Virus record (IMG/VR): IMGVR_UViG_3300025889_000966
Span: 1 to 23,527 of that record
Origin: a virus
Length of the DNA: 23,527 bases
Strand: one strand, 5' to 3'
Position 1 is the first letter of the stretch. The number at the start of each line of letters is the position of its first letter. The position numbers and the translations under genes are program-made. Shown piece after piece: positions 5,096 to 16,873 of the stretch. The notes below the pieces were generated by a model that did no database searches, was not told the origin of the DNA, and saw only the letters and a program-made list of their open reading frames with translations.

Positions 5096-5527
5096 ATGGC
5101 TGTCACGATCTCGCTCTACAATCACACGGCCAAGTTGTTCGCCGAAGGCAGCAACGCGGCCGCCGACACCTACAAGGTGAAACTATATGCCTCGGCGACG
5201 TTCAGCGCGGCTGACACGACCCTCGCCGGCATCACAGGCACGGAGGCCACCACAGGCACCGGCTACACGGCTGGCGGCGCTGCGCTGGCTAACGTGGCAG
5301 TGACCACCGTGACCACCAACGACGCCAAGTTCGATGCTGACGATGTGACGTGGACGGCTTCTGGCGGCTCGATCACGGCTTCCTACGCGGTCATCTACAA
5401 CGACACCGATGCCAACGATCCTCCGCTTGCCTTCATCGACTTCGACGGCTCGCAATCGGCCGGTGACGGCACCGACTTCAAGATCGTCTGGAACGCGAAC
5501 GGCATCTTCACCTTCACTGTTGCATAA
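5096..5527 (+). CDS. Phage structural protein, small beta-rich (unknown function)
   Basis: A 143-residue protein with a strong AAGGAGG ribosome site 7 bases before the ATG. The composition is Ala/Thr/Asp-rich with almost no Lys/Arg after residue 30 and regularly alternating hydrophobic strands (YKVKLYASATF, ITASYAVIYND, FKIVWNANGIFTFTVA), as in small phage virion beta-sandwich proteins. I recall similar small proteins beside tail fibre genes in alphaproteobacterial phages, but cannot name a function. The next gene follows after 21 bases and has a similar composition, so the two may be assembled together. Decoration or fibre-associated protein is the most likely reading. Confidence 0.6.
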   Translation: MAVTISLYNHTAKLFAEGSNAAADTYKVKLYASATFSAADTTLAGITGTEATTGTGYTAGGAALANVAVTTVTTNDAKFDADDVTWTASGGSITASYAVIYNDTDANDPPLAFIDFDGSQSAGDGTDFKIVWNANGIFTFTVA

Positions 5528-13818: not shown

Positions 13819-13856
13819 CACCAGCCCCTCAGTTCGCCTAGTTGAGCCTCGGTCAT
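13818..13856 (-). pseudogene. 12-codon mini-ORF, truncated copy of a neighbouring gene start
   Basis: It reads MTEAQLGELRGW. The first nine residues are identical to the start of the winged-helix-like gene at 13612 (MTEAQLGEL), with near-identical codons. It has its own good ribosome site (GAGGAGATCGAA before the ATG), overlaps the transporter stop (ATGA) and the next gene's ATG (TGATG). It looks like the remnant of a duplication followed by deletion, possibly kept as a coupling leader. Confidence 0.6.
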
Positions 13857-14365
13857 TTCGATCTCCTCATCCAATAGATGACAGCCGCGCCGAGGAGGCT
13901 GAACCATACTTTGCCAACGATCTGGCCCGCGATGAAATCAAGAGAGCCGAAAGCCAAGAACAAGAAGACGGCGCTGTCTATCACCGCGCCAACAGCCCCA
14001 GACAACGCTACGGCCAACGCGAGCCGGCGGCGCGCAAGAGGGGCATACACCGCGAAGTCCGCGAGTTCTGAAAGAAGGAATGCAGCCACGCTGGCGATCA
14101 CGATGGCCGGCGGCGAGATGCCGGCAGATATGATAGCGCCGACAGCGATGGCAGCGAGTGCATACCGCGCGCCCAGTGTCTGATGAACGGCATCACGAAG
14201 GACCAGCGCGGCTCCGACCATTAGGACGCCAGATGGCGCCATGAGACCAAAGCCGACCGGGATCAAACATGGCCCATCTGGGACACAAGTCCCTACGTTG
14301 GCGATCATCCAGTTGGCGGCTGGTATCGTCGCGATGTATCCGGCTAGTGCAGCATATCGTTTCAC
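13853..14365 (-). CDS. VUT-family membrane protein, queuosine-precursor transporter-like
   Basis: I start at GTG 14365, which has GGGAG upstream and overlaps the preceding stop (GTGA), giving 170 residues; ATG 14401 would add 12 residues but lacks a ribosome site. Five or six hydrophobic helices and the segments APSGVLMVGAALVLRDAVHQ, AFLLSELADFAVYAPLARRR and IDSAVFLFLAFG match the VUT (DUF165, YhhQ/QPTR) family, which imports queuosine precursors such as preQ0 and preQ1 in the inner membrane. The landmarks RD-x-hQ, SE-aDf-vY and D-x-F-L are present. Its partner, coupled by overlap, is a TGT/DpdA-like protein, so it probably supplies the 7-deazaguanine base. The transporter family is confident; the exact substrate is inferred. 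Confidence 0.8.
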   Translation of the reverse strand: MKRYAALAGYIATIPAANWMIANVGTCVPDGPCLIPVGFGLMAPSGVLMVGAALVLRDAVHQTLGARYALAAIAVGAIISAGISPPAIVIASVAAFLLSELADFAVYAPLARRRLALAVALSGAVGAVIDSAVFLFLAFGSLDFIAGQIVGKVWFSLLGAAVIYWMRRSK

Positions 14366-15042
14366 AGCAGCATCTCCCTTTGCTGAGGTCTCATTTTCCA
14401 TCGTATCGGGTTCTGAATGGCATCTATTCTTCGAGCCATTCTTTCTGGGCAGAGGTCGTCATCCTTGTAATTGCGCGCGACGTTCACGCTGTCGGCGCTG
14501 GCGAAGGGCCATCTGTCGCCGCATAGCGCAAGTCCGCGCAGCATATGCACCCAAGGCAACTCACCGCGAGAAGCGAGCGCGTTGAATGCTTCATCAACCC
14601 GACGCTCCCATATCTCAGAGCCTACTTGCCAATATGCCTTAGAACTCCCGAAGCATATTTTAGCGAAGCCCATGCCGCATAGATCAAGAAGATGCTCGAT
14701 GGGTTCGTGCAGGTGCCAAACAACGGCGGCCAAGCCTCTGGTGTGAGGCCATTCGGATATCAGTCGCAGATTGTCATCAACTTCGCCATTTATGACATCC
14801 GGCACAACCGCCCAGTGTGGATGTCCCAAGCGTGGCTCGACCCAAGCATAGAACTTCGACCAATCCCCAGCGTCCTTGGCGTCACGCAGGCTGAAAGCAC
14901 CATTATCCCACATCACCGATTGACCATGAGCAAGACACCAGTCGCCATCTTCTGGTCTGGCGAAGCTGACGCAAAAGCATTTGCCGGCCATCTTTAGCAG
15001 TTCAGATCGCGGCGTCAGTGGCGTGCCATGATAGTGCAGCAT
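14362..15042 (-). CDS. TGT/DpdA-like protein, candidate DNA deazaguanine transglycosylase
   Basis: ATG 15042 is chosen over an ATG 36 bases earlier because it overlaps the upstream stop (TGATG) and has a GGGGG site; the protein has 226 residues. It belongs to a phage family I know with blocks YHGTPLTP, QSVMWDNGAF (D46), WAVVPDV (D82), VVWHLHEP, CFGSSKAYW, WVHMLRGL and FASADSVNVARN. The repeated beta-strand/Asp blocks and the order DNGAF, PDV, GSS, H-ML, SADS fit a TIM-barrel of the tRNA-guanine transglycosylase superfamily, with D46 and D82 as candidate base-recognition and nucleophile residues. DpdA enzymes of this superfamily insert 7-deazaguanines into phage DNA. Coupling to a VUT transporter supports this. 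A function as an unrelated TIM-barrel enzyme cannot be excluded. Confidence 0.55.
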   Translation of the reverse strand: MLHYHGTPLTPRSELLKMAGKCFCVSFARPEDGDWCLAHGQSVMWDNGAFSLRDAKDAGDWSKFYAWVEPRLGHPHWAVVPDVINGEVDDNLRLISEWPHTRGLAAVVWHLHEPIEHLLDLCGMGFAKICFGSSKAYWQVGSEIWERRVDEAFNALASRGELPWVHMLRGLALCGDRWPFASADSVNVARNYKDDDLCPERMARRIDAIQNPIRWKMRPQQREMLL

Positions 15043-15203
15043 CACCACCCCCACGAGATGATGACCGCCGCGAGCCACGGCACCACGGTGATGCCGAGGG
15101 CGCCGGCCGCCGCACCTGCCAACAGGCAGCGCAGGCGGGGCTTCGTCGGGTCTGCTTTCAAGTTCTCGAAGTGCTGTGCCATTCTGCCAAGATCCTCACG
15201 CAT
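15042..15203 (-). CDS. Small single-span membrane protein
   Basis: ATG 15203 has GGAGG eight bases upstream and overlaps the upstream stop by 8 bases; 53 residues. Residues 1-24 are charged (MREDLGRMAQHFENLKADP) and the rest is hydrophobic (CLLAGAAAGALGITVVPWLAAVIISWGW), probably one or two short membrane passes. The unrelated longer frame upstream is a shadow of the next gene. It lies just upstream of the deazaguanine pair; a link is not shown. Confidence 0.55.
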   Translation of the reverse strand: MREDLGRMAQHFENLKADPTKPRLRCLLAGAAAGALGITVVPWLAAVIISWGW

Positions 15204-15477: not shown

Positions 15478-15626
15478 GCTTGCTCTCCCAGCTTGCTTTT
15501 GAGGACGAGAATGTCGCGGTGCATCTGTAGTTTGTCGAGCGCCAACTCGGCCACCTTCTGCTCAAGGCGGGCGATCTCCGAACGCTGCTTGGCGACCTTG
15601 CTTTTGAGGATGTCGATCTCGGTCAT
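15474..15626 (-). CDS. Small coiled-coil protein (50 residues)
   Basis: This short gene runs from ATG 15626, overlapping the methyltransferase stop (TGATG), to TGA overlapping the next ATG (ATGA). The 50 residues are one heptad-patterned helix (ILKSKVAKQRSEIARLEQKV, ELALDKLQMHRDILVLKSKL). A 14-base direct repeat, cttgcttttgagga at 15492-15505 and 15597-15610, encodes LKSK at both ends, an in-frame duplication 35 codons apart. Function unknown; the coupling on both sides and lack of internal stops support it. Confidence 0.65.
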   Translation of the reverse strand: MTEIDILKSKVAKQRSEIARLEQKVAELALDKLQMHRDILVLKSKLGEQA

Positions 15627-16873
15627 CACATCACGCTCCTGATGAATGTCGCGGCGACTTGCGGGACGATGGCATTGCCGTAACCCCGCAGTCGTCCCAC
15701 GCGGGCGGGTAGCCCATGAGCCAGCGGGAATGTGCCGGGTTCAACTGGCCGCCACCGCTCATCGCGGCAGAAGAGCCAGTCAGCATCTCGCCAGAAGCCG
15801 TTAGTCGGGCGGGGCCATGCGGCGGCAGATGCGACTTGTCCCCAAGCTGATTGATCGTAACCGTCGTCATGCTCTCCTGTGTGCCCTTCTTGCCGTTGCT
15901 GCGGTTCTGGTAACCCCTCCTGGCCTCTTCCGCTTCTGGCGTCGGCCAGCCCGCCATCGCCGCTCGCTGCGGCAGAGGAATGCCCGTGTCCTGCGGCCTG
16001 ATCGTCCCGTTGCCGCGCGATCCGTCCTGCGCTGTCGGCGTCGGCCAGCCGGCCATCTTGCCCATCTGCGTCAGGCTGACGCCGGTCATCCCCTCCGTGA
16101 TCCCCGATCCGCTGCGCTCCCCGTCCGAGGCCGCTGGCGTCGGCCAGCCCGTCATTTTTTCCTGCATCCGGCGCGATGGCTTCCCCAACATCGCCTTCGC
16201 CATTTCTGGCAGTGGTGCCTGCGATCCCGTGTCTGTCGTCGTCGGCGTCGGCCAGCCTGTCATTGCTGCCGTCAATGCCACCGCTGGATACGGTGACGTG
16301 GCGAACTTGGCCTGCCGATACTCCAGCGATCCCCGGTCCAGATTGACATCCGCCACTTGCGGCGTCGGCCAGCCGCTCTCCGACGAACCAGAGCCGCTGT
16401 CTGATATGCGGCGCGCCGATGCCCGCAGCGCACAGATCTGCCGCCCCGATGGCGTAGCCCGTGGCTTCCATGTCAGCACATACAAGGTCGAGCCAACCGA
16501 GGCCGTCCTTGCTCGCAACTTGCTCTCCAAAGACGATTGCAGGCTGGCACTGGCTGATGAGGTGGTGCCAATGCGGCCAGAGGTGCCGCTCGTCAGCAAC
16601 CCCCGCTCTTCTGCCTGCCGCGCTGAAAGGCTGGCACGGACAGGATCCCGTCCAAACAGGGCGGTCGTCGGGCCATCCGGCGAGGCGCAAGCCGAGGCTC
16701 CAGCCGCCGATCCCTGCGAAGAAGTGGCATTGAGTGTATCCACCCAATCTATCTGGGTCCACGTCTCTGATGTCGGTCTCATCCACATCTCCATCCGCGA
16801 TCAAACCGCGCTTGATGAGTTCACGCAGCCACGCAGCCGCCTTCGGGTCTAGTTCATTGTAGTAGGCTCTCAT
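15626..16873 (-). CDS. C5-cytosine DNA methyltransferase
   Basis: A 415-residue protein, ATG 16873 overlapping the upstream stop (ATGA). The start [20 protein letters not shown] is typical of a phage/alphaproteobacterial Dcm group. Motif [12 protein letters not shown] (51-61), motif IV with catalytic Cys in SCPCQPFS (C80), motif VI as GEQV (E117; canonical ENV), motif [16 protein letters not shown], and motif [16 protein letters not shown] are present. Between about residues 167 and 335, where the target recognition domain would lie, the sequence is an odd low-complexity stretch with five LADA units. It would methylate cytosine in phage DNA against host restriction. Nearly the whole gene is also open in a second frame (WPTP ORF), which probably explains the odd middle. 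Confidence 0.88.
15631..16782 (-). CDS. Overlapping-frame WPTP-repeat protein nested in the methyltransferase gene
   Basis: I start at ATG 16782 because GGAG lies six bases upstream, which the ATG at 16794 lacks; this gives 383 residues in a different frame of the same strand as the methyltransferase. I recognise the blocks [26 protein letters not shown] then [25 protein letters not shown], and near the end [38 protein letters not shown] and [10 protein letters not shown] as a protein family often predicted in phages and metagenomes, of unknown function. Five GWPTP-A-D units occur at the DNA repeats that also give LADA in the other frame. No enzyme motif is visible. Translation is not proven, but the long frame, good ribosome site and conserved family blocks argue for it. 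Confidence 0.65.
15938..16374 (-). repeat. Five copies of GGCTGGCCGACGCC, dual-frame coding repeats
   Basis: The + strand copies of ggcgtcggccagcc are at 15938-15951, 16037-16050, 16136-16149, 16244-16257 and 16361-16374. Spacings are 99, 99, 108 and 117 bases, all multiples of three, so the phase is kept in both frames. They encode LADA in the methyltransferase frame and GWPTP in the nested frame. Confidence 0.9.

Follow-up and report, generated by a model that had tools for sequence, protein, structure and literature searches.

A phage cytosine-5 methyltransferase gene whose nested second frame probably supplies the target-recognition part

In the C5-methyltransferase M.EcoHK31I, the coding sequence of the small subunit lies within that of the large one, in another frame. 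The enzyme consists of two polypeptides: the larger carries motifs I–VIII and X, the smaller motif IX (PMC3404938). The published account predicts that the recognition domain lies in the larger subunit. In phages of Bacillus, multispecific C5-methyltransferases carry tandem recognition domains within one coding sequence and one frame (PMC8936443). A search of the literature outside subscription journals found no paper describing a nested arrangement of this type in phages, and in the passages found, the article about Edwardsiella phage eiAU deals with the enzyme frame only. The nested ORF is, however, already annotated as a 'putative Mte8-like protein' in phage K1G and as 'Mte8-like' in fTaEco03, so noticing it is not new. 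We take the Mte8 label to refer to the small subunit of M.EcoHK31I (UniProt MTE8_ECOLX, target YGGCCR).

The window, that is, the whole stretch of DNA analysed, is a 23.5 kb IMG/VR virus record. An ORF termed alpha and a second ORF nested in it, termed beta, both lie on its minus strand (Table 1). We consider it probable, at roughly 0.86, that two overlapping frames on one strand of this locus give rise to the two subunits of a DNA cytosine-5 methyltransferase with the M.EcoHK31I layout. As in M.EcoHK31I, motifs I–VIII and X are in the larger protein, a likeness drawn from the published description rather than from sequence. Here too the smaller ORF is nested in the other frame of the larger, the M.EcoHK31I side of this likeness being general background together with the Mte8 label. 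Motif IX probably falls in the smaller protein, as judged by its pattern and by single-frame relatives rather than by an independent profile match. Unlike M.EcoHK31I, where recognition is predicted to reside in the large subunit, this locus has its recognition region in the nested frame, according to the pattern of selection, and its beta protein belongs to a family with up to six tandem modules. Because of this placement of the recognition region, we regard the enzyme as a variant working like M.EcoHK31I and not as a plain member of that type. M.AquI is also a two-polypeptide C5-methyltransferase split in the variable region, but its small subunit holds both motifs IX and X, whereas motif X is in alpha here. 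The tandem modules recall those of the Bacillus phage multispecific enzymes, although here they occupy a separate nested ORF. Out-of-frame coding within a phage methylase gene is also seen in the hidden HNH insertion of ShiLan (PMC11855218); that element is a homing endonuclease, while the second frame here would be part of the enzyme.

Table 1. Positions of the two ORFs and their features in the window
Feature	Position	Strand	Description
Alpha ORF	15626..16873	(-)	415 aa; putative C5-cytosine methyltransferase catalytic subunit, motifs I–VIII and X
Alpha catalytic domain, residues 1–170	16364..16873	(-)	folded; AF2 pLDDT mostly >80
Alpha spacer, residues 171–355	15809..16363	(-)	LADA repeats; dNN/dSN 1.23; pLDDT ~45, predicted disordered
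Alpha C-terminus with motif X	15629..15703	(-)	182 nested loci have motif X in frame 0; AF2 helix 404–414
GGAG Shine-Dalgarno-like core	16789..16792	(-)	upstream of beta ATG 16782; from sequence
Beta ORF	15631..16782	(-)	383 aa, lies within alpha in the +1 frame; proposed target-recognition and motif IX subunit
Beta N-domain, P0002 80–130	16405..16557	(-)	helix and hairpin, over alpha motif V–VIII region; AF2 pLDDT 78–90
Four complete WPTP modules, P0002 142–282	15949..16371	(-)	39, 36, 33 and 33 aa; proposed recognition cassettes
Fifth WPTP module with the linker that leads to motif IX, P0002 283–348	15751..15948	(-)	from sequence comparison
Beta motif IX, P0002 350–366	15697..15747	(-)	near-invariant in 78 relatives; opposite alpha fourfold divergence of 0.04

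The proposed mechanism is as follows. Alpha would supply the catalytic Rossmann domain (motifs I–VIII) and motif X. Beta would start separately, about 30 codons inside alpha, be read in the +1 frame, and supply an N-terminal domain, a string of WxTP modules of ~33–40 residues and motif IX, the two proteins together amounting to the parts of one ordinary C5-methyltransferase. Both would be made and would bind each other, with the N-domain of beta docking on alpha. Target choice would fall to the modules, each perhaps with a target of its own, and the assembled enzyme would methylate phage DNA and protect it against host restriction.

The first-pass annotation had described a gene open in a second frame with its own GGAG-spaced ATG, and the ORFs, the 16782 start and the 383-residue translation were all found. 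The beta frame is open from an ATG at 16794 (387 aa) to the stop at 15631, with ATGs at 16794, 16788 and 16782, of which the last is the preferred candidate on account of the GGAG and its six-base gap. Across relatives, a start preceded by a Shine-Dalgarno sequence was present in the +1 frame of 114/174 loci and in the +2 frame of 9/174.

The openness of the +1 frame was compared with chance by shuffling synonymous codons. For the alpha ORF of the window, 1 of 5000 shuffles produced a +1 ORF with 389 codons or more. The same shuffling across 91 loci, whose members are relatives and not independent, reached the observed +1 length in 291 of 23000 cases. The mean shuffled +1 length was 168 codons, reflecting an intrinsically rather open +1 frame in this GC-rich gene, and ORF length alone is therefore moderate evidence. 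Conservation and selection, rather than length, are decisive for the reality of the nested frame. In those 91 loci the median ORF length was 349 codons in +1 and 73 codons in +2. When 80 viral loci were gathered using the alpha protein only, the +1 frame was open across most of the gene and contained a match to beta in every one of them; homologues whose second frame is broken up by stops, which had been named as an observation that would refute the idea, were absent from this set (80/80 open). The nested overlap is also present in the named phages epsilon15, Haboob and K1G and in Xanthomonas phages. In bacterial contigs 263 relatives were found and 80 kept, mainly from Pseudomonadota. The +1 overlap occurred in 89/92 further loci, where a match to the beta profile was missing from L135, L136 and L138; L135 and L138 have motif IX in +1 all the same, and L136 has it in the alpha frame. 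Overlaps of low similarity were seen in Paenibacillus and Lactobacillus phages (L133, L134) and in mycobacteriophage Zerg (L131). At one bacterial locus, in Consotaella salsifontis (L146, 4841–6052), a stop interrupts the alpha spacer at 5471–5473 and beta is intact.

Alpha matches PF00145 (2e-13, residues 75–167) and, over its full length, phrog_363 (3.8e-82), and it falls in the HhaI family both by profile (4e-17) and by fold (7.8e-8; folded part). The motif IV PCQ is present, and the motifs through VIII follow the order expected for a C5-cytosine DNA methyltransferase (PF00145). The motif-II-like segment, however, occupies residues 1–45, ahead of motif I (FFAGIGG from residue 51) and the catalytic PCQ (79–81), and the distance from motif I to motif IV is ~25 aa rather than 62–70 (178 loci). 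The motif order is thus probably permuted, as if motifs II–III had moved to the N-terminus, with hhalign giving a P value of 0.001 and a probability of just 22%. Such a permutation is a rearrangement inside the C5-methyltransferase family and leaves membership unaffected. An earlier description of motifs I–VIII and X as intact holds for their presence but not for their canonical order, since the motif-II-like segment precedes motif I. The form YYNELDPxAAxWLR of this segment was observed before motif I in the window (16739–16873, minus strand) and in 178 main-clade loci. AF2 modelling of alpha gave a confident fold for residues 1–170 and the C-terminus only, and left the spacer disordered. This stretch had been noted as low-complexity at the place where a recognition domain is expected; what looks low-complexity there is the beta modules read out of frame, as a shadow in alpha.

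The repeat behind that shadow is GGCTGGCCGACGCC, with five exact copies at 15938, 16037, 16136, 16244 and 16361 on the minus strand and none in a reversed-pattern control. Its spacings are 99, 99, 108 and 117, and it translates as LADA in the alpha frame and as GWPTP in the beta frame, so the copy number, spacings and double reading that had been reported all stand. Cutting beta at WxTP across relatives yielded 473 modules with a median of 40 aa and none to six per protein. There were 39 module clusters represented in at least three loci; 35 of these were seen at two or more positions, and 30 had at least two different right-hand neighbours. Every nucleotide match in the variable region was in frame (555/555), and 367 were displaced by at least 60 bases. 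From these sequence comparisons the WxTP modules appear to be tandem and exchangeable, resembling recognition cassettes, and we infer a role for them in recognition. Beta matches phrog_1008 (8e-41) and phrog_31772, both labelled DNA methyltransferase, and a Pfam search found no family that covers it; the family is thus not wholly of unknown function, as the earlier remark on its recurring blocks had supposed. Pfam and PDB sequence searches gave no match to its motif IX, which is putatively assigned from its pattern, its place and the single-frame relatives. The AF2 model of beta was poor (mean pLDDT 56) and confident in the N-domain only, and a fold search with Foldseek gave no match.

Selection differs between the two frames along the gene. 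A global alignment of alpha across the variable region gave noise because the modules are not collinear, and was replaced by ungapped nucleotide matches and then by independent pairs. In the ungapped matches, alpha codon positions 1, 2 and 3 changed at 0.405, 0.192 and 0.140, as expected of a gene whose reading frame is +1. Beta had a dNN/dNS of 0.21 (0.20–0.22) and alpha a dNN/dSN of 1.23 (1.18–1.29), where the bootstrap intervals treat the matches as independent, which they are not. The test on independent pairs uses each locus only once and is free of this problem. Divergence at alpha positions 1, 2 and 3 was then 0.374, 0.167 and 0.110, and position 1 changed more than position 3 in 38/38 pairs (p = 7e-12). 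This codon-position pattern means that beta is constrained in the variable region (dN/dS ~0.21) and alpha is not (~1.2). Purifying selection on the nested frame, which had been proposed as a check, is accordingly strong just where the recognition region should lie. Divergence at alpha fourfold sites was 0.64 in the alpha-only head, 0.23–0.26 over alpha 106–150 (the beta N-domain) and 0.04 opposite beta motif IX. The constrained frame is alpha over the catalytic motifs and motif X, and beta over the modules and motif IX; over the beta N-domain both frames carry constraint. The suggestion that the nested protein constrains the enzyme is only partly right, in that in the spacer alpha follows beta and not the reverse.

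In some relatives the same parts are found in one frame. The actinophage enzymes of WillSterrel (L137) and Gudmit (L136) continue past motif VIII in a single frame with modules of WxTP type, a stretch resembling motif IX (LNPAFPEWMMGWPTGW in WillSterrel) and motif X. The single chain of the WillSterrel methylase matches both phrog_363, the alpha family, and phrog_1008, the beta family (1.3e-57). Since modules, motif IX and motif X share one frame in actinophages, the C-terminal half of beta is taken to be the displaced recognition region of an ordinary C5-methyltransferase. A census of frames found motif IX in +1 and motif X in frame 0, the layout of the window, in 182 loci, both in frame 0 in 29 and both in +1 in 4; the pattern used missed motif X in 23 loci with motif IX in +1. 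In an unrooted tree of a catalytic stretch of ~105 residues, the main single-frame set clusters together and adjoins nested relatives. Four loci in which both frames are shifted together (L038, L039, L194, L203) fit single indels and were left out of the evidence. In the actinophage-like loci L240, L243, L244 and L247, the +1 ORF holds the modules, motif IX and motif X, an M.AquI-like division.

Some dual-frame genes contain HNH-endonuclease-like inserts, at L063, L066, L042 and L183 (motif IX site) and at L181 (catalytic region). Alpha is open throughout, and in L063/L066 and in L042 the insert re-creates the end of beta motif IX. The design of these inserts resembles that of the ShiLan element (PMC11855218), and no Rfam intron was found at those of L042, L063, L066 and L181.

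We have shown that both frames are open and conserved in place, that selection along the gene is opposite in the two, that the parts occur in one frame in relatives and that the modules are shuffled. The +1 frame might nevertheless be open merely because the gene is GC-rich and alpha itself is conserved: under shuffling the frame is intrinsically rather open (mean 168 codons), and some stretches at the N-terminus of beta reflect conserved motifs of alpha. This is hardly credible for the variable region, where alpha is unconstrained and beta conserved, and the codon-position pattern refutes it; it also has to face the frozen alpha fourfold sites opposite motif IX, an open frame in 80/80 relatives and the homologues of the beta C-terminal part that are read in the alpha frame in actinophages. 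A different possibility is that beta is real but is not a methyltransferase subunit; it could, for instance, bind DNA or counter restriction in some unrelated role and simply use the locus. Beta has no fold or Pfam match that would speak against this, and its partnership with alpha is a proposal, but in actinophages the modules and motif IX sit inside the methyltransferase chain, between motifs VIII and X, and alpha has no folded region there. We judge such an unrelated function to be very unlikely.

The two frames could also be joined into one chain by programmed ribosomal frameshifting from alpha to beta, and back again for motif X. The single-frame relatives do suggest that the parts can work as one chain, and the stretch of modules and motif IX sits between alpha motifs VIII and X. 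Such a scheme requires two shifts, though, and it leaves aside the Shine-Dalgarno-preceded +1 start near the beginning of beta in 114/174 loci, the selection acting on the beta N-domain upstream of any useful shift site, and the making of M.EcoHK31I as two polypeptides; we think it unlikely, if somewhat less so than the unrelated function. Two separate, overlapping proteins, with the nested one serving as specificity or partner subunit, as the first-pass annotation had supposed, is the reading supported by conservation, selection and the single-frame relatives, and within it the partnership would follow by inference.

Near the methyltransferase gene lie genes for a Vut_1/YhhQ-like transporter (13853–14401, minus strand) and a queuine tRNA-ribosyltransferase-like protein (DpdA-like, phrog_887; 14362–15078, minus strand). 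A pair of this kind is linked to the 7-deazaguanine DNA modification pathway. Its presence suggests 7-deazaguanine modification of the phage DNA and fits a DNA-modification island. Among the 25 best-represented of 44 Pfam families in 117 neighbour proteins of the genomic loci, no restriction enzyme family was found.

The two-subunit enzyme proposed here is of a known kind; what is new is the recognition region in the nested frame, the tandem cassettes and the breadth of the arrangement in phages. In many phage and prophage records a single ORF of the pair is annotated, usually under the name 'DNA cytosine methyltransferase', and an enzyme cloned on that basis would, on our reading, be without the half that recognises the target. 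The usual explanation of overlapping genes is that a novel protein has been overprinted on an older one, whereas here the parts of one enzyme appear to be split between frames. Single-frame, partly split and fully nested relatives coexist, so the path between these states is traceable. A more tentative extension, to which we give slightly less than even odds, is that this is a widespread class of phage cytosine methyltransferases in which the whole recognition apparatus is held in a hidden second frame as exchangeable cassettes. Shuffling would then rewrite the targets, alpha would tolerate any sequence there as a disordered linker, and each cassette may add a target. The arrangement suggests that a phage could vary its methylation targets while leaving catalysis untouched.
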